64,000 nucleotides of DNA from Aureibaculum algae (GTDB lineage Bacteria; Bacteroidota; Bacteroidia; Flavobacteriales; Flavobacteriaceae). A program made the translations under genes and the position numbers. The stretch covers positions 1,874,501-1,938,500 of the forward strand of contig NZ_CP040749.1 in the NCBI RefSeq assembly GCF_006065315.1, given 5' to 3'. Position 1 is the stretch's first letter. Each line of letters opens with the position of its first letter. Below, piece after piece: positions 28,982 through 48,133 of the stretch. Below the pieces are notes generated by a model. The model was given only the letters and a program-made list of their open reading frames with translations. It was not told the DNA's origin and searched no databases.

Positions 28982-29013
28982 TAGATGACTTTTTTTATAT
29001 TTGGGTATATATA
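28982..29013 (+). promoter_or_regulatory. Shared promoter-like motif A (upstream of M48 gene)
   Basis: TAGATGAC, then an A/T-rich stretch, then TTGGGTAT. The same arrangement occurs at 34817 and 38866. This copy also contains TATATTTG, a canonical -7 box. It lies 10-40 bp upstream of the first cargo gene. Confidence 0.45.
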
Positions 29014-29022
29014 ATAAAAAAA

Positions 29023-29850
29023 ATGAATAAAATTTTACTTCCCCTACTGCTAATATGTTATTCTACTGGTATTTATTCACAGGGATTATCAGAGAAAAAA
29101 TTGAAGGAAATTGTTGAAAGTTATAAATCAAGTATTGAAACAGCCTTAGTTATTGAGGATTGTGGTCATGTATTTGACGGTCCTCTTTATGCAGCAAAAC
29201 AACTCGAAAATGTATTTTTAGATGCTTCTCTTAATTTTAATTCAAAAGAACGAAAAGTAATGGCTAGTTCTATTTTTTATGATGTAATTAGATCTAAAAA
29301 GATTGTTAAACATCATGCATCTAAGGATAGTGTACTTGCTATAGTTCAAAAAATTACTAATCAATTGGTTTCAAAGGACGTAATTTATAAATTAACAATT
29401 ATTGATTCCAAGCAAGTTAATGCGTTTACGACTATGGGTGGATATCTTTATATAACTACGGGATTACTTGATTTTGTTGATTCTTATGATGAATTAGCAT
29501 TTGTTATTGGGCATGAAGTAGCACATGAAATTAAACTCCATACACAACGAAAGGTTACAAAGATGTTATATTCTTCGAGTTTTTTTAAACTAATTAGTAT
29601 AGCTGATTTTAAAAAAATGGTGTCGAGCATTAATTCATCTTTGTCGGCTCCATTTGATCAAATTGATGAATATGAAGCAGATAAATATGGTTTATTATTG
29701 GCAAAAGGAGCTGGATATGATGTAAACAGATTTGGTGACTTTTTTAAGAAGTTTGAAAAATATGAGAAAAGAGATTTACTTACTAAACTTAAATCTACAC
29801 ATCCGTTTGCTAAGCATCGAAAGAACTGTATAAGCAAGTACACAAATTAA
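29023..29850 (+). CDS. M48-family zinc metalloprotease, secreted
   Basis: Peptidase of 275 residues with a signal peptide (1-20, ending IYSQ). The zinc site is HEVAHEIKLH (HExxH, about 164-168) with the third ligand in EYEADKYGLLLAKGAGYD (about 216-233), the usual M48/BepA-Oma1-like arrangement. It lacks transmembrane helices after the signal, so it should be periplasmic. It is the first gene of a tightly packed series (12 bp to the FHA-ABC gene), suggesting that its role is linked to the transporter or to the envelope. Confidence 0.85.
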   Translation: MNKILLPLLLICYSTGIYSQGLSEKKLKEIVESYKSSIETALVIEDCGHVFDGPLYAAKQLENVFLDASLNFNSKERKVMASSIFYDVIRSKKIVKHHASKDSVLAIVQKITNQLVSKDVIYKLTIIDSKQVNAFTTMGGYLYITTGLLDFVDSYDELAFVIGHEVAHEIKLHTQRKVTKMLYSSSFFKLISIADFKKMVSSINSSLSAPFDQIDEYEADKYGLLLAKGAGYDVNRFGDFFKKFEKYEKRDLLTKLKSTHPFAKHRKNCISKYTN

Positions 29851-29861
29851 ATAAGTGCCTA

Positions 29862-32228
29862 ATGCAACAAGAAGTTTATCTTAAAATAGGTGCTAAAACG
29901 ATCGCTTTAGCTGAAAATCAAAAATTACTCATTGGTAGAAAAAAGCATGGAGCCGATATAGAAATTGATGATCCTTCTGTTGGACGAAAACATGCCACAA
30001 TTGAAAATAAGGCAGGAAAAATCTATATCAAGGATTTAGAAAGTCTTAATGGTACTTATGTCAATGATAAACGAATAGAATCAAACAAGTTGATAGAAGT
30101 TTCTTTAAAAGATAAAATTAAAGTTGTATCAGAGTCTATTGAAATTACATTAAAAAAAAATACTTTAACAAAAGATAAATCTGAAAAAATATCAAAAAAA
30201 GATGATAAAAATGTTGAATTAAATGATGCTACTGGTCTTAAACAAAAAATTACCAGTAAGGGTTTCTTTAATATAGGAAGATTATCTGAAAATGATATAG
30301 TTTTAGATGATCGCGTTGTGTCAAGAAAGCATGCTAAGATAAGTTTCGAAAATGGAAATTTTTGGATAGAAAATCTTCGATTAAAAAATAAAACATATCT
30401 AAATGGGCATGAGGTAAAAGAGAAAACTCGTTTAAGGGATACCGATGTCATTACTATTTCTTTTTATTCAATCGACCTATTGAATGGTCTAAAAGATCTT
30501 AGAAAGGAACACAGTGCAATTGAAGCTATAGGAATACAAAAGAAATATCCAAACAATAAAATTGGCTTACAGTCTCTTTCATTAAATATTCCACAAGCTA
30601 CTTTTGTGGCTTTAATGGGACCTTCTGGTTGTGGAAAATCTACACTGTTGAAATGCTTGAATGGAGACAACCCTGCAACTTCTGGTGAGGTATTGATTCA
30701 TGGTCTATCACTTGAAAAGAATTTCAATCTTATAAAGAAAAAAATCGGCTATGTCCCTCAAGATGATATTATTCATAAAGAACTTACTGTTTATAAGACG
30801 CTATTTTATGCTGGTAAACTTAGACTTCCTGACGACACTTCAGATGAAGAAATTAACAATAGGATAAACCGAGTTATTTCCAGTTTAAATTTAGATCAGG
30901 ATAAAGAAAAAGACATTAGAGGCATTAAAGTAGGAAGTCTCTCTGGAGGACAAAGAAAACGTATTTCAATTGCTGTAGAATTGTTGACTGAACCAACTAT
31001 TCTTTTTCTTGATGAACCTACTTCCCCGTTGGATCCTGAAACTATTGAGAGTTTTTTAACAAGTTTACGAGAATTAACAAAAGAGGGTACTACAATTGTA
31101 ATGGTTACTCATAAACCAGAAGACTTGAATTATGTTGATCAGGTCATTTTTTTAGGAGTGCAAGGTCATTTGACTTTTACTGGTCCCGCTAATTCACTGA
31201 TTTCGAAATTTGAGGTAAATAATATCGTAGAAGTCTATACTAAAACGAGTGATTTAGAACAAGTATTAAAAAATTACTATATAAAGTCTCCAGAAGTTCT
31301 TTATCAAAAAGAAAGTATTCCAGAGATTAAACGCGAAAAACCAGATTCGCTCATACTTCAATTGTATTGGTTGATATCGCGATATTTTAAAATTAAAATT
31401 AACGATCGTGAAAATTTAATTTTATTGTTTGCACAACCTCTCATTATTGGCGGTTTGGTTAGCCTTGTATTTAATGAATTAAGTATTGGAGTATTTTTTA
31501 TGATTGCTATTTCGGCGGTTTGGTTTGGTGTAAGTAATGCCTCCAAAGAAATTGTTGGAGAATTAGCTGTATATAGAAGAGAACGGATGTATAATTTAAA
31601 TATTAACACCTATATTATTTCCAAATGTGTTGTGCTTTCTATGATAGCTTTGATACAAACTATTATATTTATTTCAATTGTCTATTTAAATTTTAAAATT
31701 AATACGGTTGAAGGACATTCTGATACTTTTTTACGACCGTTTTGGCAAAGTGTTGGATTCATGTTTTATCTTTCTTTTTCGGCAACATTAATGGGTCTTT
31801 TCTTATCCTCTTACTTTAACACTACAGAAAAAGTAATGACGGTAGTACCTATAGCATTAATGCCGCAAATTATGTTAGCAGGTGTTATGACAAGAATTGA
31901 CAATACTTTAGTTGAATTATTAAGTTTTACCACTTTAGGACGTTGGGGTACAGAAGGTTTCGCTAGAATTCAAGACAAATCATATTTGGATGCGGAGATG
32001 GAGTCAAAATCGATTTTATTAGAAGTCACCCAAGGTAATGATATAAAATTAGTTGGCTCAAAGGCAATGAAAAGGTTAGACTTATACAATGAAAATTTAG
32101 TAGAGAATGGAACGCTTATAGGGTCTGTATTTGATAGTTTTAGTGCCAACTTACTTATGATAGCAGCATTGAATTTGGTAGTATACTTATTAATTTATTA
32201 CGCATTAAAAAGAAAAGATAGTATCTAA
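29862..32228 (+). CDS. Double-FHA ABC transporter (Rv1747-like architecture)
   Basis: 788 residues: FHA1 (about 22-92; GR at 25-26, NG at 63-64), FHA2 (about 136-205; GR 139-140, SRKH 154-157, NG 181-182), an ABC ATPase (Walker A GPSGCGKS 253-260; LSGGQRKRIS; Walker B FLDEPTS; H-loop VMVTHKPED) and a C-terminal ABC-2 type membrane domain (about 515-785, six hydrophobic segments). The order FHA-FHA-NBD-TMD is that of Mycobacterium tuberculosis Rv1747, an ABCG-like half transporter controlled by the kinase PknF. Oddities: FHA1 has Gly in place of the phosphate-contacting Ser (GRKH), and the D-loop reads SPLD rather than SGLD. The substrate is unknown. Confidence 0.9.
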   Translation: MQQEVYLKIGAKTIALAENQKLLIGRKKHGADIEIDDPSVGRKHATIENKAGKIYIKDLESLNGTYVNDKRIESNKLIEVSLKDKIKVVSESIEITLKKNTLTKDKSEKISKKDDKNVELNDATGLKQKITSKGFFNIGRLSENDIVLDDRVVSRKHAKISFENGNFWIENLRLKNKTYLNGHEVKEKTRLRDTDVITISFYSIDLLNGLKDLRKEHSAIEAIGIQKKYPNNKIGLQSLSLNIPQATFVALMGPSGCGKSTLLKCLNGDNPATSGEVLIHGLSLEKNFNLIKKKIGYVPQDDIIHKELTVYKTLFYAGKLRLPDDTSDEEINNRINRVISSLNLDQDKEKDIRGIKVGSLSGGQRKRISIAVELLTEPTILFLDEPTSPLDPETIESFLTSLRELTKEGTTIVMVTHKPEDLNYVDQVIFLGVQGHLTFTGPANSLISKFEVNNIVEVYTKTSDLEQVLKNYYIKSPEVLYQKESIPEIKREKPDSLILQLYWLISRYFKIKINDRENLILLFAQPLIIGGLVSLVFNELSIGVFFMIAISAVWFGVSNASKEIVGELAVYRRERMYNLNINTYIISKCVVLSMIALIQTIIFISIVYLNFKINTVEGHSDTFLRPFWQSVGFMFYLSFSATLMGLFLSSYFNTTEKVMTVVPIALMPQIMLAGVMTRIDNTLVELLSFTTLGRWGTEGFARIQDKSYLDAEMESKSILLEVTQGNDIKLVGSKAMKRLDLYNENLVENGTLIGSVFDSFSANLLMIAALNLVVYLLIYYALKRKDSI

Positions 32229-33112
32229 TGAATAGATTTATAAGAAATATAATAATTGGTGCAACGTTGATTATCATGTATTCATGTGCTCAAAATCCTG
32301 AGTTTATTAAAATAGATAATATAGTTGTTAAAGGCATTAAAGACTCATTAATGGAAGTGCATATGGACTACGTTGTTTTTAATCCAAATAACGTAAAGAC
32401 CAAATTAAAACAATCAGGAATGTCTCTTTATTATAAAGATGCCTATGTTGGGGAAGGTTTTTTAGAGAATCAAATTAGCTTAAAACCCAATGACACAATA
32501 CGAGTACCTGTACTATGTAATATAAAGCTTGATAAATTAAGTAAATTCTATCCGGAAATGTTGATTTCAGATACTACAGCTTTTAATATAAAAGGAGAAA
32601 ATAAAATTGGATTTTTATTTAATTCTTTTACAATTGATGTTGATGAAAAAATTTATTTAAATACAAGAGAAATTATAAAAAAAGAGATTAATAAGAACTT
32701 AGGTAATACTAGTAATTTTAGGATTAAGACGGTTTCAATTAATTCACTTCCCACACTTGATAAAACTAATTTCAAAATAACTATTCTTGCGAAAAACAAC
32801 CTCGATTTCGATTATGAAATTCATCAAATGGAACTTCAGTTTTTTTTAGATGACAAAGCAAAAGAACCTATTGCGAATTGGAGTCAAGATAAAGTCATTT
32901 CTCAGAAGGCATTATCATCAACAGAAATCCCACTTGAAGTAGTAGTTGACAATATGAATACCTTAAAGAATTCAAGTGTCACAATGCTGTTTAAAAAAGA
33001 AATTGACTTTATTGTTGTTGGTCAAGTACAAATTAAAATTCAAAATTATGTCTTTGATGTGCCTATTAATGATAATATGAAAATGGATATTAAAAAATTT
33101 ATAGGACTGTAA
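32228..33112 (+). CDS. LEA2-like lipoprotein
   Basis: 294 residues with a lipoprotein signal (IIMYSCAQ, Cys19). Two similar halves (about 25-130 and 150-285) each resemble the LEA type 2/WHy beta-sandwich: KIDNIVVKGIKDSLMEVHMDYVVFNPNNVKTKLKQSGMSLYYKDAYVGEG, and TVSINSLPTLDKTNFKITILAKNNLDFDYEIHQMELQFFL, the NPN/NNLDF positions being typical. Its ATG overlaps the ABC stop by one base, so it is translationally coupled to the transporter and could be its periplasmic partner. Function inferred from position only. Confidence 0.7.
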   Translation: MNRFIRNIIIGATLIIMYSCAQNPEFIKIDNIVVKGIKDSLMEVHMDYVVFNPNNVKTKLKQSGMSLYYKDAYVGEGFLENQISLKPNDTIRVPVLCNIKLDKLSKFYPEMLISDTTAFNIKGENKIGFLFNSFTIDVDEKIYLNTREIIKKEINKNLGNTSNFRIKTVSINSLPTLDKTNFKITILAKNNLDFDYEIHQMELQFFLDDKAKEPIANWSQDKVISQKALSSTEIPLEVVVDNMNTLKNSSVTMLFKKEIDFIVVGQVQIKIQNYVFDVPINDNMKMDIKKFIGL

Positions 33113-33114
33113 AT

Positions 33115-33678
33115 ATGACTGATCAAGAAATTATTATCCAATTGAAAAAAGGAAATGAATCATGTCTTAAGCATTTATATGTGCATTTAGATATGGTTAA
33201 AGGCTGGGTAAATAATAATAATGGGAATGATGACGATGCGTTTGATATTTTTCAGGAAGCAATGATGGTGTTTTATAAAAATTTGATCTCTGGAAAGTAT
33301 GAATCAAGTAGTAAAATAAGCACCTATCTTTTTGGAATTTGTAAAAGGCAATGGTTGAATCAATTAAATCGTAGATTAAAATACGAAAAGCCATCGGACA
33401 TTATTACAAGTACAGAAGATAAAGGAGATGATGGTTTTGAAATTGAGTTTACCATAGGTAGAGAGTCTCTTAAAAATTATATTAATAAGGCTTTGGATAA
33501 GTTAGGAGAGCCTTGTAAAGAATTGTTAGAAAAATCCATTTTTTTAAAATTAAGAATGAAAGAACTTGCAGAAATGTTTGACTATTCAAGTGCACATTCT
33601 GCAAGACAACAAAAGTTGCGGTGCATTAAAAGACTGAGGGGTTATATGTCTTATGAATTGATAATTAAATTGAAATAA
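33115..33678 (+). CDS. Sigma-70 family (ECF-like) sigma factor carried on the island
   Basis: 187 residues. Region 2 is AFDIFQEAMMVFYKNLISGKYESSSKISTYLFGICKRQWLNQLNRR (about 41-86), and region 4 is LRMKELAEMFDYSSAHSARQQKLRCIKRLRGYM near the C-terminus. It starts 2 bp after the LEA2-like stop and is followed after 1 bp by a membrane protein with anti-sigma-like layout. It is not close to the ECF factor at 3312. It may direct transcription from the three similar upstream motifs at 28982, 34817 and 38866, but this is a hypothesis. Confidence 0.82.
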   Translation: MTDQEIIIQLKKGNESCLKHLYVHLDMVKGWVNNNNGNDDDAFDIFQEAMMVFYKNLISGKYESSSKISTYLFGICKRQWLNQLNRRLKYEKPSDIITSTEDKGDDGFEIEFTIGRESLKNYINKALDKLGEPCKELLEKSIFLKLRMKELAEMFDYSSAHSARQQKLRCIKRLRGYMSYELIIKLK

Positions 33679-33679
33679 T

Positions 33680-34804
33680 ATGGAGGAAGATTTAAAACAT
33701 ATTGACCTCATAGATAAATACCTGTCAGGATCTTTGAAAGGGAGCGAAGCAATTACATTTCAAGATTTATTTAAAAATGACTCTGATTTTAAGCAAGAAG
33801 TTGAAATATACAAACGTATTTATGATAAAATTGAGTCTCGTGGCGAAACAAATTTCAAGAAACGATTAGATATTTATCATAAAGAATATTTAGCAGAGAA
33901 ATCAGGTAAACCAAAAGGTATTTATAAAAAAATAATCATATTTAGTAGTATTGCTGCTGCTCTTATTTTTGGCATTTTTATATTTAATAGTTATGAAGTA
34001 GGTCAGAAACCAATATTTAATCAACCTGATCCTGTTATTGTAGATTCAGAAAAAGATAGCCTTAAAATAAATAAAGATAATGATGAATTTCTAGAACATG
34101 AGAAAGTCATTGTTCAGGAAGATAATTCAACTGTAGATAGTACATATATACCCAATAATTCCGGGCATGAAACTCAATTATCAATCGGAGGTTTAAAGAA
34201 ACTACCTACTATTAATATTAGAAGTGCTAATTATCCCATAACCATACAATATTCTTTTGACCAAAATGAAATTATATTATTTGGAGACCCTTCCATTTCT
34301 GGATTACAGCTACAAATCCTAAAAAACAAATCTGACAATTATTTTTTAAAATATCAAGAGCAATATTATACTATCCCAAAATCAAAAGTAAGGAAAGCTT
34401 TAAAAATTGTTTCAGATTTTGAAGTAAAAACCGCAGTCACAAAGGAACAAATTACCGTTAAATTAAAAGGTATTGATGCCATAACCAGTGTTTTAAAGGA
34501 TATAGAAGTTTCTTATACAGGAAATAAAGTAGCAAGACCAACTTATATGTTTGAAGAAAAAGAAAACAGATTACATTTAATTATAAATGGTGATATTTCA
34601 ATTGATAAAACTAAACTTTATAAAATAATACAAAATGATGAGAGTAGTTATTTTCTAAAAATGGATAAAGCATTATATCATTTAAACTCAAAAGTAACTG
34701 AACCTACTCCATTAAAAGAAATTAATATTCTAGCAAATGATTTAACTCAGTTATTTAGAGAAGACACAGAATTACCAAAAGAGATGGTTTATTTGATTGA
34801 ATAA
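33680..34804 (+). CDS. Single-pass membrane protein, candidate anti-sigma factor
   Basis: 374 residues: a cytoplasmic N-terminal helical domain (HIDLIDKYLSGSLKGSEAITFQDLFKNDSDFKQEV), one membrane helix (about 84-103) and a large periplasmic part. The N-terminal layout (short helical region ending in a linker, then one TM) is that of anti-sigma factors in Bacteroidota, and it follows the sigma gene by 1 bp. The periplasmic part contains two related units (NKSDNYFLKYQEQYYTIPKSKV near 218 and NDESSYFLKMDKALYHLNSKV near 317), perhaps a sensor formed by internal duplication. No zinc motif. Anti-sigma role inferred. Confidence 0.55.
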   Translation: MEEDLKHIDLIDKYLSGSLKGSEAITFQDLFKNDSDFKQEVEIYKRIYDKIESRGETNFKKRLDIYHKEYLAEKSGKPKGIYKKIIIFSSIAAALIFGIFIFNSYEVGQKPIFNQPDPVIVDSEKDSLKINKDNDEFLEHEKVIVQEDNSTVDSTYIPNNSGHETQLSIGGLKKLPTINIRSANYPITIQYSFDQNEIILFGDPSISGLQLQILKNKSDNYFLKYQEQYYTIPKSKVRKALKIVSDFEVKTAVTKEQITVKLKGIDAITSVLKDIEVSYTGNKVARPTYMFEEKENRLHLIINGDISIDKTKLYKIIQNDESSYFLKMDKALYHLNSKVTEPTPLKEINILANDLTQLFREDTELPKEMVYLIE

Positions 34805-34816
34805 AAATATAATTAG

Positions 34817-34848
34817 TAGATGACGTTTTTAAATATTGGTTATTAATA
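34817..34848 (+). promoter_or_regulatory. Shared promoter-like motif B
   Basis: TAGATGAC, then TTTTTAAA, then ATTGGTTATT; nearly identical to motif C (38866) and similar to motif A (28982). It lies about 30 bp before the lipoprotein start at 34879. Confidence 0.5.
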
Positions 34849-34878
34849 AACATAATAACATATTTAAAAACAAACATC

Positions 34879-35415
34879 ATGAAAAATTTCAAAACATTAT
34901 CTACTATTTTAATTGCATTACTATTTATGTCAGCGTGTACAGCTGAAACAAATGAAAAAACTCCAATCATTTCAGGAGAAGGAATTATATCATTGACAGG
35001 TGATGATACAGCATCTGTAGGAAATAGCCTTAAGTTAGGTGCAATGGCTTATGGAAGAAAAGACCTAACAGGTACAGAAGAATCAATAATTATAGCTCCA
35101 GAAGAGAGCATAATTTCAGAAGATTCGCCTACATTATCTCCAAGTGATCCTGAATACGTAAGCTCTATCATAAATTTTAAAGATGATAAAAACGCATTTG
35201 TCATCGTTGCAACAAAAGAATTAGTATCAATAGTTATTGTTACTAATGGTATAAAAAGGAGATATGTATGTGATTCTAAATTTAATACATCTGTAAATTG
35301 TGGTGCAATTACAATAGATCCAAAAACTAAAAAAGTTATATTTTATGAAACTACAGTAAAAAACACAAATACTGGAACGCTATTAACTTTAAACGGAACT
35401 TTGACATGGAACTAA
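34879..35415 (+). CDS. Unknown lipoprotein
   Basis: 178 residues with a clear lipobox (LFMSAC, Cys20). The rest is acidic and S/T/E-rich around 60-95 (TGTEESIIIAPEESIISEDSPTLSPSDPE), then beta-rich with a Cys pair (RRYVCDSKFNTSVNCGAITID). No family recognised. It overlaps the next gene by 10 bp and is preceded by motif B, so the pair is a transcription unit of the cargo. Envelope location is likely. Confidence 0.6.
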   Translation: MKNFKTLSTILIALLFMSACTAETNEKTPIISGEGIISLTGDDTASVGNSLKLGAMAYGRKDLTGTEESIIIAPEESIISEDSPTLSPSDPEYVSSIINFKDDKNAFVIVATKELVSIVIVTNGIKRRYVCDSKFNTSVNCGAITIDPKTKKVIFYETTVKNTNTGTLLTLNGTLTWN

Positions 35416-35849
35416 AACTTCATAATAGAATCACGTTCAAGTCTATAAACACAGTTAGTTTGCTAATTTTACTTATTCTAGGTTACGCTACAACTTTAGA
35501 AGCCCAAAATTCAAATAGAATTAACCCAACTTTAGGTTTTTCTTGTTCTTTTGTAGGTAAACCTACAGCAGTAGTAATAAAAATATCAGAACTCATTGAA
35601 AATTCTCATTACGATAGTATTAAAGATTTATTGCATACAGGGAATGCTGCCGAAAAATATTTGGCAGTATTGCTTTGTGAAAAGTTAATGCAAGAGAAAA
35701 AGATTGCACTAACAATCTCAGAGAAAAAAACAATTAGAGCATTGTACCAATCAAAAGAAACCGTTACTATTTGCTCTGGCTGTACATATTTTAAAAAGAC
35801 AACTTTACATGCCTTATTAACTAGGGAAAGTTATTTTGCAGAAATATAA
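35406..35849 (+). CDS. Unknown secreted protein
   Basis: 147 residues with a hydrophobic N-terminal signal (about 16-34, ending TLEAQ). A helical mature region follows (ISELIENSHYDSIKDLLHTGNAAEKYLAVLLCEKLMQEKKIALTISEKKTIRALYQSKE) with a CSGC pair near 122. It looks like a small helical-repeat (HEAT-like) domain, but no family is recognised. It overlaps the upstream lipoprotein gene, implying coupled translation. Confidence 0.55.
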   Translation: MELKLHNRITFKSINTVSLLILLILGYATTLEAQNSNRINPTLGFSCSFVGKPTAVVIKISELIENSHYDSIKDLLHTGNAAEKYLAVLLCEKLMQEKKIALTISEKKTIRALYQSKETVTICSGCTYFKKTTLHALLTRESYFAEI

Positions 35850-35948
35850 AAAAAAAATGGGTAGCAAAAGTCATCAAAAAAGACGACTAAAATTATTGTT
35901 ATATTTATAGCTACATTTTTCAATACCACTAACCTTATTAACCCGTCT

Positions 35949-38855
35949 ATGAAATTATCACATTACGAATGGGATCCAGAAAAAGACCTCATTGCAGAAG
36001 GTGCTTCTGCCGAAGTTTTTAAAGCAAAAGATACTAATAGTCAAAACCGATTTGTTGCATTAAAAATATATAAGGAAGCTGTAATTAAAGGTACTACAGG
36101 AAACTCTAATCAAAAAAAATATACATTAGAAAAAGAGTTTCATAAAATAGACGGTTTATCACATACAAATATTGTGAGTTTTTATGGTCTTGATTATATA
36201 CAGCATAGTGATGCTATGGGTAGATCTTCAAGTTACCCAGTAATTATTATGGAATATGCAAGTGAAGGCACATTGCATGACCTTATAAAAACAGCTCCAA
36301 GTCAAAAAGTAATTGATAGCATTATACAAGATATTCTTAAAGGAGTTGATTACTTGCACAGTGAAGGAGTTATTCATAGAGATTTGAAGCTTGGTAATGT
36401 TTTAGTTTCGAAGAATAGAAAAGGTAAATTGATAGCTAAAATTACCGATTTTGGAATTAGCCGTGATGTTCTAGAAGATCAAACAATTAATCAGTCATTA
36501 ACCGAAGGCGTGGGCACACCACATTATATGTCTCCAGAACAGTTTTTCAAAAGGAAATTTGGCTTAGATGGGGAAATTAGTGAACGGACTGATATTTGGG
36601 CCATCGGCGTTGTAATCTATAGATTGTTAACGGGTAAATTGCCTTTTGGAGATAGCAACAAAGACTATGAACAGATACGAGATGCCATTGTTACCTATGA
36701 GCCAGATTATAGTTCGATACCGTCAAGGTATAAAAAAGGATTGATGTCTTGTTTTCAAAAAAAGGCAGAGAAAAGACCGAGAAATTTATCTGAATTGAAT
36801 CAACTTTTTCAAATAAAAGAAAAGAATGGCACATCTGATAATCAAGAATTTGAAACTGTAATTCTACCATTAGATAACAAAGATAACTCTTCCGATTTAG
36901 AATCTGAAATGGAAACACAAATTCCTACTTACTTAAAAAAAACAAAACTTGAAGAGAAGAATGAAGGGGTTAATCAAATTACTAAACTTCAAAAATATTT
37001 AGTAATAATATTTGGGTTAATTAATATTTCAGGAGTAATCTATTTTCTTTTTAATGAAAATGACTACATAAAGTTTTATATTATTTCAGCACTATATGTA
37101 TTAAGTACAATATATTTGATATTTTGTTTTTTAAAAGAAAAATCAAGTCTTCAATTTTGGAAATTCCTTATTCATGGGTTTTTATTATTTATTGCTATTT
37201 ATCTCGTAATCTTACTCTTGTTAAATATATCTAATCTTGATTTTCAAAGTTTCACTAAGGCAATATACTTTCTTGTTTTTCACTTTTTATTTATAGTATG
37301 GTTATCTGTAAAACAGTTGAAAATTAATTTGTATTTCAAGTTTAGAGATGAATTAGGGCTGTCTTTACTTATAACGATTTCAATATTAATATACTTGGCT
37401 TCTTATTGGTTTCCAATATATAACAAAGAGGTTGCAGTTAATCAAGTTGTTTATTTAATGTCTGATACGTTTTTGTTATTCTCGTTGGTGCCAAATATTT
37501 TCTTTATTGCTGCCTTGTTGATGTTTTTTTCGAAAAGACATACCAATAAGTTTAAAATAATATTAATATTATTTTTTAGTAGTCTATTAATTTCTTCAAT
37601 ATGGTGGTTGTTTTTAAATGAGTCTAAAGGGTATATTGGTTACTTTATAGGTATTCATGTACAAGAATTTAAAGCAGGATATTATTTATGGATAATCTCA
37701 ATTTTTATTGGCTTTAGTGCCATTCTTTATAAGAGTGCTAAAAGACAAACTTCAAGTAAATATTATTGGCCACTACTAGCAGGAATTCTCATTTTATGGT
37801 CTACTTCTTTTATGTTTAAAAAATCTCAATCCCAATTAGGATTCGATTTTAACAATAGCCTTAAGAATTTGAACCATTCCAAATTAGAAAAAACATTAAA
37901 TAATGGCGCAGATATAAAATGGAATTATAATGCTATGTCTAATGTTATTGGAAAATATTCTAATGAAAACTCTAACAATGTTGAACAAATTGTTAAAACA
38001 CTAATATTAAACGGATGGGATGGTGCCTCTTTAGATGGGGAATTTAGCCTTCAAAATGCTATTCAATCAAATAACATTTCAATTCTAAAGTTAATTTTAA
38101 ACACAAAGGCTGCTAAATATATTAATAATGAGCAATCAGATCGTGTGAGTTTATTAAAAAAAGGAATAGAATTAGACAATCCTGAAATGGTAGAATTAAT
38201 ATTAAAAGCTGGAGGAAAACCAGGGCTAGATGAAAAATTATTCAATGTGGAACGCTCTGAAAAAATGATTAAAGTATTAGGTGAATATAATATTAATACA
38301 CCTGAAATTTCTTATTTCGAAGATTTTGAAAAAGGTTCTAAAATATTTAAATCTAGTTCTGATTTAAATAATAGTTGGATTTACACTAAAGCTAACGGGT
38401 TTACAAGTAGAAGGTTTCAATTTTTAAAAAAATTAGATGACGGTAAATCAAGTAGAAAGAGTGCTCTTTTTAATATCGATTTAAAGGAACAATATACTAT
38501 TGAAGTTGAAACATCATCATTTTCAAAAGGCGTTGAATATGGAATCGTATTTGATGATACTGGTGATTCATTTTATATTGCGGCTATAAATGATAATTAT
38601 TATTCAGTTTATAAATATCAAAATAGTAAATGGACTACTCTAAAGCAGGTGCCCGTTAGTAAACGAACAACTAATGTTTTAAAGATTATTCGTAATGGTA
38701 ATTATGTGTCATGTTATTTAAATGAAGTGCTAAAGATTGATAAGCTGTATACTAAAAGTTTTCAATCAAACAAAATTGGTGTTATTATATCCAATACTAA
38801 GAAAAATAGTTTAGTGCAGTTTGATAACGTCAAAGTAACTGGAAAAATGAAATAA
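35949..38855 (+). CDS. Ser/Thr protein kinase, multi-pass, with ankyrin-like and LamG-like domains
   Basis: 968 residues. The N-terminal Hanks-type kinase (1-290) has Lys39 (VALKI), HRDLKLGN (143-150), DFG (167-169) and GTPHYMSPEQF. About nine hydrophobic segments follow (350-625), then ankyrin-like helices (about 640-765: LEKTLNNGADI, LQNAIQSNNISILKLIL, NPEMVELILKAGGKPG) and a C-terminal concanavalin/LamG-like beta domain (about 795-968, YFEDFEKGSKIF ... VQFDNVKVTGKMK). The glycine loop is atypical (AEGASAEVF). The kinase domain is a close paralogue of that at 40933. Likely substrates are the FHA-ABC protein or its partners (inferred). Confidence 0.9.
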   Translation: MKLSHYEWDPEKDLIAEGASAEVFKAKDTNSQNRFVALKIYKEAVIKGTTGNSNQKKYTLEKEFHKIDGLSHTNIVSFYGLDYIQHSDAMGRSSSYPVIIMEYASEGTLHDLIKTAPSQKVIDSIIQDILKGVDYLHSEGVIHRDLKLGNVLVSKNRKGKLIAKITDFGISRDVLEDQTINQSLTEGVGTPHYMSPEQFFKRKFGLDGEISERTDIWAIGVVIYRLLTGKLPFGDSNKDYEQIRDAIVTYEPDYSSIPSRYKKGLMSCFQKKAEKRPRNLSELNQLFQIKEKNGTSDNQEFETVILPLDNKDNSSDLESEMETQIPTYLKKTKLEEKNEGVNQITKLQKYLVIIFGLINISGVIYFLFNENDYIKFYIISALYVLSTIYLIFCFLKEKSSLQFWKFLIHGFLLFIAIYLVILLLLNISNLDFQSFTKAIYFLVFHFLFIVWLSVKQLKINLYFKFRDELGLSLLITISILIYLASYWFPIYNKEVAVNQVVYLMSDTFLLFSLVPNIFFIAALLMFFSKRHTNKFKIILILFFSSLLISSIWWLFLNESKGYIGYFIGIHVQEFKAGYYLWIISIFIGFSAILYKSAKRQTSSKYYWPLLAGILILWSTSFMFKKSQSQLGFDFNNSLKNLNHSKLEKTLNNGADIKWNYNAMSNVIGKYSNENSNNVEQIVKTLILNGWDGASLDGEFSLQNAIQSNNISILKLILNTKAAKYINNEQSDRVSLLKKGIELDNPEMVELILKAGGKPGLDEKLFNVERSEKMIKVLGEYNINTPEISYFEDFEKGSKIFKSSSDLNNSWIYTKANGFTSRRFQFLKKLDDGKSSRKSALFNIDLKEQYTIEVETSSFSKGVEYGIVFDDTGDSFYIAAINDNYYSVYKYQNSKWTTLKQVPVSKRTTNVLKIIRNGNYVSCYLNEVLKIDKLYTKSFQSNKIGVIISNTKKNSLVQFDNVKVTGKMK

Positions 38856-38865
38856 TCCTTATTAA

Positions 38866-38897
38866 TAGATGACATTTTTAAAAATTGGTTATTCATA
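38866..38897 (+). promoter_or_regulatory. Shared promoter-like motif C
   Basis: TAGATGAC, then ATTTTTAAA, then AATTGGTTATT; differs from motif B at only three positions over 27 bases. It lies about 30 bp before the gene at 38928. Confidence 0.5.
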
Positions 38898-38927
38898 TAT
38901 GAATGTTTAACTTAAAATTATTTAAAA

Positions 38928-39470
38928 ATGAAAACTATAAGAAAAATAACCTTGCTTTTTGCCCTTATTATGGCTGGTACTAGTTACTCACAAGAGTCAT
39001 CAAAAAATAAAGAAGAAAGTAAAATCAACAAAGAAATTGATAAAACTAGTAATGAAGTAAAAAGAACCAGCGAGACAGTAAATAGTGCTACAGATTCTAT
39101 TACCAGTACCATTAAACAGACGAAAAAATCAGTTAAAGATTTGAAAACTGCCATTTTTGGTGAAAGAAAGTCAAAAAAGAAAAAAGAAAAAACCAAAACA
39201 AATAAAGACTTGATTATTATCCAAATTGCTAATATAGCGTATAGCAATTCAAATTTAAAAGAGCTTCAAAATTCATTGTCTAAAATTAAAGGAGTTAAAA
39301 ATGTTTCTAAAAGCTATACCAATGGAAATGCCATAATCAATATAGCCACTAAAGAAAATGCAGACTTTCTTTGGCAGAACATTTCTGAAAGATTGAATAA
39401 GGTCTTTATTGTAAATGAAATGAATGAAAAAAACATTTTGTTAGACTATAAAGAGTCAGCCTCTAATTAA
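38928..39470 (+). CDS. Unknown secreted coiled-coil protein
   Basis: 180 residues: a signal peptide (1-21, ending SYSQ), a highly charged helical coiled-coil segment (22-90, lysine/serine/threonine rich, KINKEIDKTSNEVKRTSETVNSATDSI) and a basic patch (KSKKKKEKTKTNK), then a compact alpha/beta C-terminal domain (95-165: LIIIQIANIAYSNSNLKELQNSLSKIKGVKNVSKSYTNGNAIINIATKENADFLWQNI) with a ferredoxin/BON-like beta-alpha-beta look. First gene of the unit behind motif C. Not recognised. Confidence 0.6.
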   Translation: MKTIRKITLLFALIMAGTSYSQESSKNKEESKINKEIDKTSNEVKRTSETVNSATDSITSTIKQTKKSVKDLKTAIFGERKSKKKKEKTKTNKDLIIIQIANIAYSNSNLKELQNSLSKIKGVKNVSKSYTNGNAIINIATKENADFLWQNISERLNKVFIVNEMNEKNILLDYKESASN

Positions 39471-39504
39471 AAAACAGTCATTTAACCGAAAAACCATAAA
39501 TAAA

Positions 39505-40281
39505 ATGAAAAGTACTATACTAATTATATTAATTGCAATCTTAATACCAAATACTGCTTTTGCAAAAAGAGGTGGTGGCCTTTTTGGAAAAAGTGAACGC
39601 ATTATTAAAATTTCAGAAGTTGATGTTAAGGGGGCAGATGGAGAAGAATTGTTTTTGGCTTATAAAACTACACAAGTATTTTTTTTTATGGGTGCATATA
39701 TGTCTGATGATGGTTATGTGTTGGGAATCAAAAAAAGTTTTGGTTCATACTATCCTTTAAGTGAAGAAAAAATAAAGTCCTTACAAGAAAGTGGAGTATT
39801 ACCAGCAGCTTTACCAACCTATAAAATTCCTATATCTGAATGGTTATGGGGTTTTTCATTATGGATTTTACTTACTGTTTTAGGAGGCCTTTGGTTAATT
39901 ATGTTACCAAAAAAGAAAGATAGAAATTTCACGTCAGGATGTAATCATTATTTTGGAAAGGAAACTCCAGTAGATTTTAATAAAGCTTTGAATTATTTCG
40001 AAAAATCAGCAAATAAAGGGCATTCTGGAGCACTACATAATTTAGGCATTATGTATTTGAACGGACAGGGCGTCACAAAAAATAACGAGTTGTCAATAGA
40101 ATATTTCAAAAATGCCGCGAATGAAGGGTATGTAGATTCCATGTTCACATTAGGAAAAATCTATTCTGGAGGAACACTAACTAATAAAGATAATAAAAAA
40201 GCAATGCTATATTTTCAAATGGCTTGTGACAAAGGAGATGTGGAAGCTTGTACATCACTTAAAAACTTGCAAAACGCTTGA
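39505..40281 (+). CDS. Membrane protein with cytoplasmic Sel1 repeats
   Basis: 258 residues: an N-terminal signal sequence (1-20, NTAFA), an extracytoplasmic domain (about 21-110), one membrane helix (112-131, WGFSLWILLTVLGGLWLIML) and three Sel1-like repeats (about 143-255: DFNKALNYFEKSANKGHSGALHNLGIMYLNGQGV and two more). The topology places the Sel1 part in the cytoplasm. It could be the membrane adaptor that meets the Sel1 tail of the kinase at 40933. Function inferred from the neighbourhood. Confidence 0.72.
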   Translation: MKSTILIILIAILIPNTAFAKRGGGLFGKSERIIKISEVDVKGADGEELFLAYKTTQVFFFMGAYMSDDGYVLGIKKSFGSYYPLSEEKIKSLQESGVLPAALPTYKIPISEWLWGFSLWILLTVLGGLWLIMLPKKKDRNFTSGCNHYFGKETPVDFNKALNYFEKSANKGHSGALHNLGIMYLNGQGVTKNNELSIEYFKNAANEGYVDSMFTLGKIYSGGTLTNKDNKKAMLYFQMACDKGDVEACTSLKNLQNA

Positions 40282-40371
40282 TAGCTATATCCTGATTAAG
40301 AAAAAACTATAATTCAGTTTTCAGATAAAATTTATAAATTAGCTTGATAAAATCAAAAAATCGACATTATT

Positions 40372-40923
40372 ATGGAAAGTAGCAAAATAGAAATACCTTT
40401 AAGTAAGGGTAAAATGATATTTTTAATTTTGGGGTGTTTACTTTTTGTATTCCTTGGGGTTGCTATGTTTTTAAATGCAGAAGGAATGCAAACCAGAAGA
40501 ATCAATAACTCTTTAATCATAAGAATTATTTCAATAATTGGAGTTTTGTTTTTCGGATTTATTTGTATCTCTGTTGTTAAAAAAATTATAAAAAATGAGT
40601 CAGGATTAATTATTAATCATTTAGGTATTTGGGATAACTCAAGCGGTGTGAGTGTAGGTATGATAAAATGGAGTGATGTCATTGGAATTCGAAAAGCGAA
40701 AGCTTCTGGAACCAATTTTATCCTTATTGATGTAAATAACCCCGACTTTTATATAAATAATATAAAAGGTAGCATAAAAAAGCAGGCCATGAAAGCCAAT
40801 ATGAGAAAATATAACACCCCAATTTCAATATCAACCGCTGGCTTAAAAATTAGCTTTAAAAACCTTGAAGAATTAATAGAGCACGAATACAAAACAAACG
40901 TCAACACCAATATCAACCTATAA
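40372..40923 (+). CDS. STM3941-family membrane protein
   Basis: 183 residues, two N-terminal membrane helices (about 15-35 and 45-68) after the family's opening IEIPLSKGKM, then a PH-like cytoplasmic domain (SGLIINHLGIWDNSSGVSVGMIKWSDVIGIR, TAGLKISFKNLEELIE). This matches the STM3941 family, whose function is not established. It ends 9 bp before the second kinase gene and is therefore probably co-translated with it. Confidence 0.72.
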   Translation: MESSKIEIPLSKGKMIFLILGCLLFVFLGVAMFLNAEGMQTRRINNSLIIRIISIIGVLFFGFICISVVKKIIKNESGLIINHLGIWDNSSGVSVGMIKWSDVIGIRKAKASGTNFILIDVNNPDFYINNIKGSIKKQAMKANMRKYNTPISISTAGLKISFKNLEELIEHEYKTNVNTNINL

Positions 40924-40932
40924 ATCAAACCA

Positions 40933-43623
40933 ATGAAATTATCACATTATGAGTGGGATCCTGAAAAAGATTTAATAGCTGAAGGAGGCTTTGCAGAGGT
41001 CTTTAAAGCTAAAGATATAAATACTGCCAACAGATGGGTAGCCTTGAAAATTTATAAAGAGGCTGTATCTAGAGGTACAACAGGTAGTACTGGTCAAAAA
41101 AAATACAGTTTAGAGCAAGAGTTTGCTAAAATAGATGGACTCTCGCATACAAACATTATTTCATTTTATGGTTTAGAATATATAGAGCATCAAGATGCTA
41201 TGAGTAGAACGGCTAGTTACCCTGTTTTAATTATGGAGTATGCTGGTGAAGGGACGCTTAAAGAACTTTCTAGAAATCAACTTTCTGATGATAATTTAGA
41301 AGAAGTTATCATTAGTATTATTAGAGCTACTGGTTATCTTCATAGTCAAGGTATAATTCATAGAGATTTAAAGCCAGGAAACGTACTTTTTACTAAAGAT
41401 AGAAATGATAAGTATGTAGCCAAAATAACTGACTTTGGTATTAGTAAAGATGTCTTGGGTGATAAAACCATAGATCAATCATTTACTGAAGGAGTAGGCA
41501 CACCTCATTATATGGCTCCAGAACAATTTTTTAAAAAGAAGTTCGGCTTGAATGGTGAAGTAAGTGAGCGTACTGATATTTGGGCGATTGGTGTTATTCT
41601 ATTTCAATTATTAACAGGTAAACGACCTTTTGGTCAAGGACTCAAAGATTATGAATTGATTCGAGATGAAATAACTCAAAAGAAATTGGATCTTTCCATA
41701 GTTCCAGAAAAGTTTCAAACGGTTATATCTAAGTGTCTTGAGAAGGAAGCTGTTAATCGACCAGAAACAGCGAATGAATTAATAAATTTATTAAACACTC
41801 AATCTTATGATGAGGATCTTACAATTATTCCGGGTCAGGCAGGTGTTGTCTACCCATCTGCCACTCATGTAGTTAAATCTAAGAAAAAAAATGTTCTAAT
41901 AACAGTAATTGTGGGCATACTGATTTTGTTAGGAAGCTTTGGAGGTTTTAAATGGTATCAGTATAGTAAGGCTAAGGAGCTATTAGCTCAGGGGTGGGAT
42001 TACTACAAGATTGGAAAATATAAAAATGCCTACGCATCTTACCTTCAAGCATCAGATTTTAATTCAGGGAAGGCATATTATTATTTATCTCTTATGAATA
42101 ATTTAGGAATGGGTATTGACAAAAATTATAAAAAAACCTTAGAATACGCCGATAAGGCAATTGAAAATAATTTTAATATGGCCGCATTCCAACACGGTTG
42201 GTTATATAAATATGGATACGGTGTACCTGTAGATAGTATGAAAGCAGTCAGTTATTTTAAAAAATCGTTACCACAGATAAGAGAACTATCGAATGAAGGT
42301 GACTCTGAAGCACAAAATTTACTTGGACTTTTATATGGTTCTGGAGATGCTATTGATAAAGATCTTAAAAAATCATTTGAAATGACTAAAAAATCGGCAG
42401 AAAATGGTCATCCAGCTGCAATAGCAAATTTAGGCAGTAAATACATGTATGGTTTAGGAGTTGAAAAAGACTGTAATAAAGCATTAGAATGGTTTAAAAA
42501 AGGTCAAGAAATTAATGCAGCGAGAGCGTGGTATGGAGAAGGACAATTGCATTATTACGGATGTGACGAATTAAAAATAGACTATGATAAGGCTTTTGAA
42601 AGTTTTAAAAAAGCAGCCGATTTAAACAACATTGACGCACAATACAAACTTGGCTATATGCTGCAAAAAGGTATTGGCAGAAAAAAAGACTTAGACGAAG
42701 CAATGTGGTGGTATCGTAAAGCTTGTGAAGCGGACAATATAGATGCATGTAATAACCTTGCCAATATTTATGATAATAAAAATAATTATATAGAAGCAAA
42801 AAAACTGTATACTAAGGCAGCTCATAAAAATAATAAATATGGAGCGTATAACTTAGGTCGTCTTTTTGAAAGTGATAAAATTAAAAAAGATCTTGACAGT
42901 GCCAATTTTTGGTTTAGTAAAGCTGCTCATCTTAAGCATAGTGCAGCACAAAATCAGTTGGGGTATAATTTTAATAAAGGGGTCGGATATAAAATAAACC
43001 TTGATAGTGCTTTCTATTGGTACGAAAAATCAGCTTTACAAAATTATAGATATGGCCAATTAAACCTAGGTATTATGTATGCTAAAGGACATGGGTGTGA
43101 ACAAAGCTATGTTAAAGCTAAAGAATGGTACGAAAAAGCTGCAGCACAAAATGATGGAGATGCAATTTATTCGCTTGGTAATTTATATTACAACGGTAAC
43201 GGTGTTAAAAGAGATTATTTATTAGCAAGAGAATACTTTAAAAAAGGGGCTGATTTTGGTATCTCTAAATCTCAATTTATGTACGCACTTATGCATGTAA
43301 ATAAAGAAGGTGGTGCCCAGAATTATTTTAAGGCAAGAGAATGGTATAAAAAAGCAGCATTACAAGATGATGATAATTCTCAAGTCAATTTGGCTCTACT
43401 CTATTACGAAGGTAAAGGAGGGAGTAAAGATGAAAAACAGGCTTTTTACTGGTACGAAAAAGCTGCTAAAAATGGCAATGCTATAGGTCAGAATAGCTTA
43501 GCAATTTGCTATTTATATGGGATAGGGGTTAAAAAAAATAGAGGCTTAGCTAAATTTTGGTTTGAGAAATCGTGCAAAACAGGTCATAAAAAGTCATGTG
43601 AAGATATAGATAAGCTACTCTAA
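40933..43623 (+). CDS. Ser/Thr protein kinase with long Sel1-repeat tail
   Basis: 896 residues. The Hanks-type kinase (1-290) has Lys39, HRDLKPGN (143-150), DFG (167-169) and GTPHYMAPEQFF. One membrane helix follows (about 318-338). The C-terminal 540 residues are some 14 Sel1-like repeats (for example ALEWFKKGQEINAARAWYGEGQLHYYG, AKEWYEKAAAQNDGDAIYSLGNLYYNGNGV). It shares the first 16 residues (MKLSHYEWDPEKDLIA) and most of the kinase domain with the protein at 35949, but the C-terminal parts are unrelated. The Sel1 tail would be outside the inner membrane if the single helix spans it. No frameshift. Confidence 0.92.
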   Translation: MKLSHYEWDPEKDLIAEGGFAEVFKAKDINTANRWVALKIYKEAVSRGTTGSTGQKKYSLEQEFAKIDGLSHTNIISFYGLEYIEHQDAMSRTASYPVLIMEYAGEGTLKELSRNQLSDDNLEEVIISIIRATGYLHSQGIIHRDLKPGNVLFTKDRNDKYVAKITDFGISKDVLGDKTIDQSFTEGVGTPHYMAPEQFFKKKFGLNGEVSERTDIWAIGVILFQLLTGKRPFGQGLKDYELIRDEITQKKLDLSIVPEKFQTVISKCLEKEAVNRPETANELINLLNTQSYDEDLTIIPGQAGVVYPSATHVVKSKKKNVLITVIVGILILLGSFGGFKWYQYSKAKELLAQGWDYYKIGKYKNAYASYLQASDFNSGKAYYYLSLMNNLGMGIDKNYKKTLEYADKAIENNFNMAAFQHGWLYKYGYGVPVDSMKAVSYFKKSLPQIRELSNEGDSEAQNLLGLLYGSGDAIDKDLKKSFEMTKKSAENGHPAAIANLGSKYMYGLGVEKDCNKALEWFKKGQEINAARAWYGEGQLHYYGCDELKIDYDKAFESFKKAADLNNIDAQYKLGYMLQKGIGRKKDLDEAMWWYRKACEADNIDACNNLANIYDNKNNYIEAKKLYTKAAHKNNKYGAYNLGRLFESDKIKKDLDSANFWFSKAAHLKHSAAQNQLGYNFNKGVGYKINLDSAFYWYEKSALQNYRYGQLNLGIMYAKGHGCEQSYVKAKEWYEKAAAQNDGDAIYSLGNLYYNGNGVKRDYLLAREYFKKGADFGISKSQFMYALMHVNKEGGAQNYFKAREWYKKAALQDDDNSQVNLALLYYEGKGGSKDEKQAFYWYEKAAKNGNAIGQNSLAICYLYGIGVKKNRGLAKFWFEKSCKTGHKKSCEDIDKLL

Positions 43624-43729
43624 GTAGAAACTTAATAATGTAGTTGAAAAAAACATAAATTTTAATTACGCACTGAAATACAAATTACTTCCTGATTATT
43701 ACTGTTAATAATTGATTTTAAGCTAAAAA

Positions 43730-44518
43730 ATGGAAATATACGAACCAATATATTTAAACGAGTTAGGTAAACGTTCTAATAATGAAGATGCAATTTTTCC
43801 AAATAAGGCTTCAACATTTAATGAATTATTTCTTGTTTGCGATGGCGTTGGAGGTCAAGATAAAGGTGAAGTGGCGTCAAGATTTATTTGTGAGTTTTTA
43901 CCTCAATATTTTGAAAATAATCAAGTTGATATTCATGATAAAGGATGTTTAGAATCGGCCTTGGAATTTGTGGAGCAAAAAATGAATGATTATATCAAAT
44001 TGAACATTGAAGCTTCTAAAATGGCAAGTACCTTAACACTATTATGTCTTTCAAAAGAAGAAGACAAAGCATTAATTGGTTGGGTAGGCGATAGCAGGGT
44101 TTATCATATAAGAGATGGAAAAATTCTGTTTCAAACTAAAGACCACTCTGAGGTGCAGAGCTTGGTAGATATGGGGGAAATTTCAGAACAAGAAGCAGAA
44201 AATCATCCTAGAAAAAATATAATAACTAGAGCGGTTAGTGGTAAAGACTCAACCAGAATTGATCAAAAAATTATTGGTAATATTAAAGCAAATGATTATT
44301 TCTTATTATGCACTGACGGTATTTTAGAAAATTTGAAGAAATTAAATATACAGAATTGGTTTGTAAAAGAAAATACCCCTGAAGAAATTAAATCTCTAAT
44401 TTTAAATAATGCATTAAACAATACAAAAGATAACTTTTCAATGTATTTGATTAAGGTAAAAGAAGTAAATAAGAAAAATATATTTGATTTTTTTACGTCA
44501 TTTTTATTACCCTTATGA
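43730..44518 (+). CDS. PP2C-family protein phosphatase
   Basis: 262-residue metal-dependent Ser/Thr phosphatase, counterpart to the two kinases. Motifs: GKRSNNEDAIF (about 13-23), FLVCDGVGGQDKGEVAS (about 34-50), MASTLTLLCL, IGWVGDSRVYHIRDGKI, HPRKNIITRAVSG and YFLLCTDGILENL. The metal-binding aspartates of the N-E-D, DGVGG and TDG motifs are intact. No membrane helix is present apart from a short hydrophobic C-terminal tail (IFDFFTSFLLPL). It lies 106 bp after the Sel1 kinase. It should reverse the phosphorylation read by the FHA domains. Confidence 0.9.
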   Translation: MEIYEPIYLNELGKRSNNEDAIFPNKASTFNELFLVCDGVGGQDKGEVASRFICEFLPQYFENNQVDIHDKGCLESALEFVEQKMNDYIKLNIEASKMASTLTLLCLSKEEDKALIGWVGDSRVYHIRDGKILFQTKDHSEVQSLVDMGEISEQEAENHPRKNIITRAVSGKDSTRIDQKIIGNIKANDYFLLCTDGILENLKKLNIQNWFVKENTPEEIKSLILNNALNNTKDNFSMYLIKVKEVNKKNIFDFFTSFLLPL

Positions 44519-44545
44519 TCTTTTATTATTTTACTCTATAATTTT

Positions 44546-44908
44546 ATGAAAGAAAAGTTTATAATTATTTTCAATGAAAATCCGTCAAGAGTAGAAGTGA
44601 ATAAAAATGTTCTTGATTTAGCGATAAGAGTTACTAACTACATCAGTGATAATTTTGACGCAAGTGATTATTTTACCATTGGAAATGAAAGCCATGAAAA
44701 AGTATTTTCGTTTCTAATTTTTTTGAAAGAGAACCATGGTCAATTACAAACTGAAGTAGAATTGTTACCCATCAATATTGATACTGTGCATTTTAGTATG
44801 CTAGAAAATATTTTCATTTACGCAAGCAATTTTGATATCCAAGAACTTGAAGATGTACAAGATGACATTTGGGATCTTTCACATTTAATTTCACCTGCTA
44901 CTAGCTAG
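44546..44908 (+). CDS. Unknown small acidic protein
   Basis: 120 residues, soluble, acidic, mixed alpha/beta (KFIIIFNENPSRVEVNKNVLDLAIRVTNYIS; FSFLIFLKENHGQLQTEVELLPINIDTVHFSML; a very acidic QELEDVQDDIWDLSHLIS tail). No family recognised. It lies 27 bp after the phosphatase gene and is the last cargo gene before the mobilization block, which is on the other strand. Confidence 0.55.
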   Translation: MKEKFIIIFNENPSRVEVNKNVLDLAIRVTNYISDNFDASDYFTIGNESHEKVFSFLIFLKENHGQLQTEVELLPINIDTVHFSMLENIFIYASNFDIQELEDVQDDIWDLSHLISPATS

Positions 44909-48104: not shown

Positions 48105-48133
48105 GAGCATTTTTATTGTTTTTATGATTTTCA

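Follow-up and report, generated by a model that had tools for sequence, protein, structure and literature searches.

The closest known system to the one described here is the mycobacterial PknF/Rv1747 pair, where a half-transporter built of two FHA domains, a nucleotide-binding domain (NBD) and a transmembrane domain (TMD) lies beside a membrane Ser/Thr kinase. Rv1747 has this domain order and shares an operon with PknF; the cargo proposed for it is a cell-wall component or phosphatidylinositol mannoside (PIM) glycolipids (PMC3908365, PMC5549992). Here we analyze a locus of 14 genes in the genome of Aureibaculum algae (Bacteroidota, Flavobacteriaceae; contig NZ_CP040749.1, positions 1,874,501 to 1,938,500, a stretch of 64,000 nucleotides called "the window" below), which encodes a 788-residue transporter of the same build. 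The locus is a real and conserved composite system of the FHA-exporter/kinase kind, and no paper on this gene combination was found in the open-access literature, judged by titles and the beginnings of abstracts, with most subscription journals outside that scope. The reading we favour on balance is a phosphorylation-gated envelope exporter that carries a lipid or other amphiphile and is under a transcription switch of its own.

The second FHA domain (FHA2) of the window transporter matches the solved FHA domain of Rv1747 (6cah, E 1.6e-5), the only domain compared, and other FHA proteins match it equally well or better. However, PknF/Rv1747 is a two-gene operon, whereas our locus also includes an M48 metalloprotease, a LEA2 lipoprotein, a sigma/anti-sigma-like pair, a PP2C phosphatase and private promoters; it has two kinases with other C-terminal modules and a putative docking threonine in the kinase linker. 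With the ABCG (White) transporters ABCG1, ABCG2 and ABCG5/G8, which are among its best structural matches, the protein shares an NBD placed before the TMD on one chain; unlike them it bears two N-terminal FHA domains, and identity in the matches listed is 17-25%. The PpkA-Fha-PppA set of the type VI secretion system (T6SS) follows a kinase-FHA-PP2C logic. The locus resembles it in this logic, and no T6SS family is among the locus Pfam matches. Like our locus, KKP combines two kinases and a PP2C (PF13672) on mobile DNA, but it is described (PMC11341870) with three genes and cold-shock and FHA domains on the kinases, and the locus kinases have neither by Pfam. The NTP-dependent conflict systems (PMC7159879) differ from the locus as well. 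Finally, FHA-less loci of Flavobacteriaceae contain the same three core genes (M48, ABC and LEA2) in the same order, with ABC parts 61-63% identical; they have no FHA, kinase, PP2C or sigma and carry instead a TPR histidine kinase, a response regulator, and WG-repeat, CsgG-like and DUF6175 proteins.

A species-genome collection was scanned with the transporter, which gave 527 confirmed relatives, and 80 loci were kept, 70 with FHA domains on the transporter and 10 without (one of these, L077, is cut by a contig end). Gene content was counted in the 47 loci whose flanks reach 8.5 kb or more in both directions (full context), and the 33 with shorter flanks were dropped. Among the 38 full-context loci with FHA, 32 had kinase and PP2C, 33 M48, 27 LEA2, 15 sigma and none a histidine kinase. 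All nine full-context loci without FHA had M48, LEA2, histidine kinase, response regulator, WG, CsgG-like and DUF6175 genes; kinase and PP2C were found in none of them. The order M48, FHA-ABC, LEA2, sigma, 374-residue protein is kept in 19 of the 80 loci. Because the same genes recur in order in other genomes, the gene set is more than a chance collection. By these counts the co-conserved core is a predicted M48 protease, a double-FHA ABCG-type half-transporter and a LEA2 lipoprotein, plus Ser/Thr kinases and PP2C.

The distribution in samples of genomes is narrow. Within 299 genomes of the family the transporter was detected in seven (E<=1e-150), at full length with FHA domains in four (G000, G120, G199 and G215); the 896-residue kinase (E<=1e-60) occurred in three, all with the FHA transporter. 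The 374-residue protein was found in five (E<=1e-8), but at full length only in the three kinase-bearing genomes. In the phylum sample the transporter reached E<=1e-150 in 2 of 395 genomes. By an eye count based on equal length of the longest contig, 22 of 39 kinase matches (P0122-P0160) appear to co-occur with an FHA transporter match. Costertonia aggregata (FHA transporter P0043) and Flagellimonas olearia (L032) are examples of cultured relatives that have the system. The earlier note on this DNA, made from the letters alone, had proposed a kinase/FHA/PP2C/exporter system with its own sigma factor, to be given up if homologous loci did not keep the genes together. In related loci they are kept together (32 of 38, and 3 of 299 genomes), and the action of the kinases on the transporter stays a proposal. 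Two arrangements may be mentioned separately. L018 and L019 have the FHA transporter and no sigma match; their kinase and PP2C genes run in the opposite direction, and genes resembling FGE-sulfatase lie in the vicinity. L044 and L070, from two Alteromonas (Pseudomonadota), have FHA-ABC with kinase and PP2C within 5 kb and no M48 or LEA2 match in the flanks, possibly a transfer across phyla.

A tree was drawn from the ABC parts by a quick method (79 rows; supports from the Shimodaira-Hasegawa-like approximate likelihood ratio test, SH-aLRT) and rooted at the midpoint. In it, all nine full-context transporters without FHA fall into a single clade nested inside the FHA-bearing ones. Their M48 gene ends 0-8 bp from the ABC open reading frame (ORF) or overlaps it, which leaves no room for FHA coding. 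L025 has a TPR histidine kinase and response regulator upstream (Pfam), L083 has two-component genes 7-9 kb away, and L013 links both forms, as kinase, PP2C, CsgG-like, DUF6175 and FHA transporter genes stand in one locus. This comparison suggests a modular phospho-signalling front end on a fixed envelope machine. We regard as evenly balanced the wider proposition that Bacteroidota have in M48-ABCG-LEA2 a hitherto undescribed machine for envelope export with an interchangeable control unit, FHA/Ser-Thr kinase/PP2C in most of the lineages found or, after FHA loss, a two-component system, and that the sigma-bearing branch is a self-contained extracytoplasmic function (ECF) sigma regulon, kinases included, transferable as a unit.

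The transporter chain has its NBD N-terminal to an ABC2-type TMD, which is the arrangement of an ABCG half-transporter. Its AlphaFold model, built with 31 sequences, is ABCG-like (predicted local distance difference test, pLDDT, 81.2; predicted template-modelling score, pTM, 0.48), and the 50 PDB matches listed are ABCG proteins, or ABC transporters taken as ABCG by title; ABCG25 and ABCG16 are also among them. Walker and signature motifs are invariant in the 31 aligned transporters. The same holds for the FHA pocket residues G25, R26, R42, H44, G139, R140, R155, H157 and N176, and N63 is present in at least 90% of the sequences.

How might these FHA domains be connected with the kinases? The linkers between kinase domain and membrane are variable, often with short threonine motifs. 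The motif T[VI][VIF][VILPM] was noticed by eye and then tested on held-back kinases of the same family, which share no 50-residue stretch with the first set and were thinned by linker similarity. It was present in 24 of the 75 linkers, with a mean of 1.44 and a maximum of 6 in 1000 shuffles, and its density was 5.75 per 1000 residues in the linker against 0.65 beyond the membrane segment. A strict form occurs in 16 of 25 kinases from the sigma-bearing loci and the window. In an exploratory test on the loci that had suggested the motif, the broad form was found in 20 of 76 (6.1 shuffled) and a form with an upstream residue class in 15 of 76 (1.2 shuffled); the pattern applied to the held-back kinases is a third and simpler one. 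FHA domains prefer pT-x-x-[I/L/V], and the linker motif is plausible as a putative FHA docking site. An FHA domain is also fused to the M48 protease itself in 21 of the 70 M48 ORFs of the 80 loci, in divergent loci (L041, L051-L055, L057, L059, L064-L069, L072, L074-L076, L079, L080 and L084); such a fusion ties protease and transporter to one phospho-circuit. Many of these loci hold several kinases, short ones of ~269 residues among them. Elsewhere in the kinase family (P0161-P0223) the C-terminal modules vary, including Sel1, ankyrin, WG and FGE-sulfatase by Pfam, and others which we take to be WD40, MORN, OmpA and RDD.

The locus also appears to have its own promoters. In many sigma-bearing loci the motif GATGAC-N13-GGKTATA lies upstream of M48; it was read by eye from upstream regions and then tested genome-wide. 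A first test by 4-mer dyads gave a top dyad in 6 of 15 sequences, where 20 shuffles reach 3 to 6. The 22-letter pattern with at most three mismatches has three sites in the host genome of 5.17 Mb, all in the locus on the same strand, each before a gene group (P1-P3), and the control has none. With a stricter pattern, 35 chosen genomes gave 22 sites, 21 of them in or directly beside sigma-bearing loci (reversed control, 2); the outlying one lies inside a 329-residue ORF on another contig of G325. At least one strict site was found in 11 of the 16 genomes with a sigma-bearing locus, and none in the 19 without, whose lack of the locus was checked by transporter and 374-residue protein searches. 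In G215 one strict site is found upstream of M48 at a distance of ~1.6 kb; the ORF that follows this site comes to within ~0.14 kb of M48. L033 has three sites of a promoter variant ending in CCTATATA. Probably, then, the ECF sigma runs a private regulon, and we infer that it reads the motif of P1-P3. As for its partner, the 374-residue protein has a helical N-terminus and one transmembrane helix (82-106), and its C-terminal part is rich in beta structure and, by eye, seems to be a duplication; it matches no Pfam or NCBIfam family, and its predicted fold has no PDB match at E<=0.001. From these features and its position we call it anti-sigma-like; of the sigma/anti-sigma pair named before, the sigma is confirmed by family score and the anti-sigma is a putative assignment by position and topology. 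In some loci another gene lies directly before M48: L015:7521-9104 (PcfJ-like, Pfam), L017:7567-9096, and also around L016:7523 and in L125; the promoter motif has sites at L016:7523 and, in G215, ahead of the upstream ORF.

The features of the window are collected in Table 1. The 14 ORFs, mostly tightly spaced or overlapping, all lie where the earlier note had put them, and domain calls by Pfam and NCBIfam bore out the domains it had named, the anti-sigma excepted and the Rv1747-like order included (Pfam). Catalytic motifs are present in both kinases (HRD and DFG), the M48 protease (HExxH) and PP2C (DGVGG). The closest NCBIfam models of the protease are BepA and LoiP, each below its cut-off, the lipobox Cys20 of LEA_2 is invariant in 16 aligned sequences, and the 968-residue kinase has a weak ankyrin match (20.1 bits against a cut-off of 27.3). 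No homologue of the 120-residue protein was found among the ORFs of the compared loci, and an Rfam scan of 24-54 kb at gathering scores found nothing. Taken together, the LEA2, M48 and ABCG features favour an envelope export and maintenance machine under phospho-control.

Table 1. Positions of the locus genes, promoter motifs and island features in the window (aa, amino acid residues)
Feature	Position	Strand	Basis or remark
M48 metalloprotease	29023..29850	+	PF01435 E 1.8e-22; HExxH at residue 164; signal-like N-terminus (by eye)
FHA-FHA-NBD-TMD ABCG-type half-transporter, 788 aa	29862..32228	+	Pfam order FHA, FHA, ABC_tran, ABC2_membrane
LEA_2 lipoprotein	32228..33112	+	LEA_2 E 1.2e-8
ECF sigma factor	33115..33678	+	TIGR02937 64.2 bits (cut-off 42.9)
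Anti-sigma-like membrane protein, 374 aa	33680..34804	+	Position and topology
Putative lipoprotein (by eye), 178 aa, no family	34879..35415	+	Homologue in L012
147-aa protein, hydrophobic N-terminus, no family	35406..35849	+	Homologues in 6/80 loci
Ser/Thr kinase, 968 aa, 8 hydrophobic segments	35949..38855	+	Pkinase; linker motifs TVIL, TQIP
180-aa protein, signal-like N-terminus (by eye), no family	38928..39470	+	
Membrane Sel1-repeat protein, 258 aa	39505..40281	+	Pfam Sel1
STM3941 family membrane protein	40372..40923	+	NF041635 148.6 bits (cut-off 40)
Ser/Thr kinase, 896 aa, one hydrophobic segment, 12 Sel1 stretches	40933..43623	+	Pkinase; linker motif TIIP
PP2C phosphatase	43730..44518	+	Nearest NCBIfam model Stp1, below cut-off
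120-aa protein, no family	44546..44908	+	
ECF-type promoter motif P1, before M48	28983..29011	+	Exact match
ECF-type promoter motif P2, before 178-aa gene	34818..34846	+	3 mismatches
ECF-type promoter motif P3, before 180-aa gene	38867..38895	+	3 mismatches
Left attachment repeat TTCCCAATACAA, 12 bp	28446..28457	+	
MobA/VirD2-type relaxase of island	45841..46698	-	
NikA/MobC-like mobilization protein	46695..47219	-	
Toprim primase and VapE-like helicase	47229..49546	-	Primase 47229-48134, helicase 48323-49546
Tyrosine integrase of island	50221..51351	-	
Right attachment repeat	52052..52063	+	Within 3' end of mnmE
mnmE	52048-53460	-	

The locus is carried on an island that spans 28446-52063, with mnmE, at its 3' end, as the insertion site. 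The 12-bp direct repeat that bounds it has two copies in the window against 0.012 expected, and in a genome of the same genus (G299) the left flank can be aligned as far as 28375 and the right one from 52049 onward, the intervening 7.7 kb being different DNA. The mobilizable island seen in the earlier note is thus confirmed and delimited by the repeats, the integrase and relaxase, and the other occupation of the site in G299. At this site G299 has a SusC/SusD-like pair and a PHP-type protein (L099:7753-13958, by eye) in place of the island. Neither the transporter (E<=1e-60) nor the 374-residue protein (E<=1e-5) was found in G299, G300 or G119, and G300 was dropped as an empty-site reference since mnmE was not found in the stretches examined. 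Beside mnmE, a 123-nt unit occurs four times in tandem in the window (54149-54637), and G299 and G119 have comparable repeats at the corresponding position. Mobility is less well supported as a general property of the system. Clear relatives of this island's own mobilization genes, the only kind of mobile element sought, occur in 2 of 20 sigma-bearing loci, namely the window and L015, whose cassette stands beside MobA/MobC/primase relatives; the other 18 of the 20 (the 20 include the window, and several loci are cut by contig ends) show no clear relative in the flanks, and L007 gave one weak relaxase match (31 bits). Plasmids yielded nothing in a near-identity search with the whole locus and no match to the transporter at E<=1e-100, and viral contigs gave one generic ABC match, no true relative.

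The mechanism we propose starts from what the sequence offers: gene set, co-conservation, ABCG-type model, FHA pocket residues, linker enrichment, private promoter motif, and an island with attachment repeats. The inner-membrane half-transporter would flip or export a lipid or other amphiphile, which the LEA2 lipoprotein may receive or shield in the periplasm, and the M48 protease may serve quality control or maturation of the periplasmic parts. The Ser/Thr kinases in the membrane, with C-terminal repeat modules that are probably envelope sensors, would autophosphorylate a threonine of the linker that joins their kinase domain to the membrane. This phosphothreonine would be the docking point for one FHA domain of the transporter or for both, and docking would set the activity or place of the transporter; PP2C would reset the phosphorylation. 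The ECF sigma, presumably held by the membrane anti-sigma, would activate the three promoters of the locus and, it appears, no others.

Several observations weigh against this picture. The linker motif is absent from all 22 more divergent kinases, where shuffling expects 0.61, so that this control hardly discriminates; its strict form is lacking in 9 of the 25 kinases of sigma-bearing loci, both window kinases included. The held-back kinases are related to the first set and cannot count as separate lineages, and the motif was first noticed by eye. Residue 41 of the first FHA domain (FHA1) is Gly in the window, where the consensus is Ser, and the linker between FHA1 and FHA2 of the transporter has no kinase-type threonine motif; Rv1747 itself is reported to be a substrate of PknF (PMC3908365). 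Our confidence is slightly lowered by Gly41 and by the weak group of control kinases. The ABCG-like fold fixes no substrate (template-modelling score 0.46 on the query, root-mean-square deviation 8.3, pTM 0.48). Gene content also varies: no kinase lies within ~10 kb in 6 of the 38 FHA-bearing loci (L031, L035, L036, L037, L042, L082), M48 is missing in five (L037, L042, L044, L046, L070), 11 have no LEA2 match, and G199 has the FHA transporter without a kinase at E<=1e-60. The regulator swap is one clade in a tree rooted at the midpoint only, so the Fisher p of 3.7e-6 overstates independence, and the swap, as one event, is suggestive and not a statistic. The strict promoter is missing in 5 of 16 sigma-bearing genomes (L013, L020, L033, L048, L073), and P2 and P3 fit the pattern only with three mismatches.

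Could FHA serve as a phospho-dependent scaffold that recruits kinases or phosphoproteins, with a sigma-dependent envelope response as the main output instead of transport gating? The sigma and anti-sigma-like genes in the operon with their three private promoters would suit this explanation, as would FHA on M48 in divergent loci. We nevertheless consider it unlikely, because loci with linked kinases retain FHA on the transporter, and loci that have lost FHA yielded no kinase (in a transporter-anchored scan, with L077 cut). Moreover, FHA-ABC and kinase persist in loci without sigma, and sigma is therefore not the constant partner.

A role as anti-phage or anti-plasmid defence cargo, in which the kinases would be either sensors or toxic effectors on the model of KKP or MADS, is less probable still. 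Carriage on an island and the patchy occurrence (full-length FHA transporter in four of the 299 family genomes, 2 of 395 in the phylum sample) would agree with it. So would the PADLOC scan of 10 of the 14 proteins: the best match of the kinases is mad6 (E 9.7e-58 and 3.5e-61, judged from the best 25 of 34 and 35 families), the transporter ATPase part matches mad3 (1.5e-29) and mad8 (1.1e-13), and PP2C matches PDC-M21C (1.7e-10). These matches, however, cover shared kinase, ABC or PP2C domains. MADS includes further genes besides kinase and ABC-type ATPase, and among the 10 proteins scanned no other Mad model matched. The KKP kinases differ in domains as described above, no nuclease or methylase is among the locus Pfam matches, mobilization relatives accompany few sigma-bearing loci, plasmids and viral contigs gave no true relative in the searches already described, and the sister loci with two-component control and CsgG-like proteins resemble envelope systems.

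Export of an antibacterial compound in competition has in our judgement a slim chance: exporter and small exported proteins without known function would fit it, but Pfam and NCBIfam revealed no biosynthesis or immunity gene in the locus (precursor peptides were not specially sought), and in sister loci the core of the exporter is accompanied by CsgG-like and WG-repeat proteins. Defence or competition, which the earlier note had offered as possible roles, thus find no support. Slimmer yet, and largely refuted, is a chance gathering of unrelated modules on the island, for order and accessory genes do vary and FHA-ABC stands without M48, LEA2 or kinase in L037 and L042, but the conserved five-gene order and the promoter sites mark the locus as a unit.

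The job of this kind of transporter in mycobacteria is debated, and the Bacteroidota locus gives a new setting in which to study the cargo of Rv1747-type FHA exporters and the Ser/Thr control of an ABC exporter. The domain order is that of Rv1747, the cassette is compact, conserved and sigma-marked, and nature supplies an FHA-less counterpart. A likely docking threonine, the promoters and the partners M48 and LEA2 can all be read from the sequence, which makes each step directly testable. The locus family looks like one machine that has traded a Ser/Thr-kinase front end for a two-component one.

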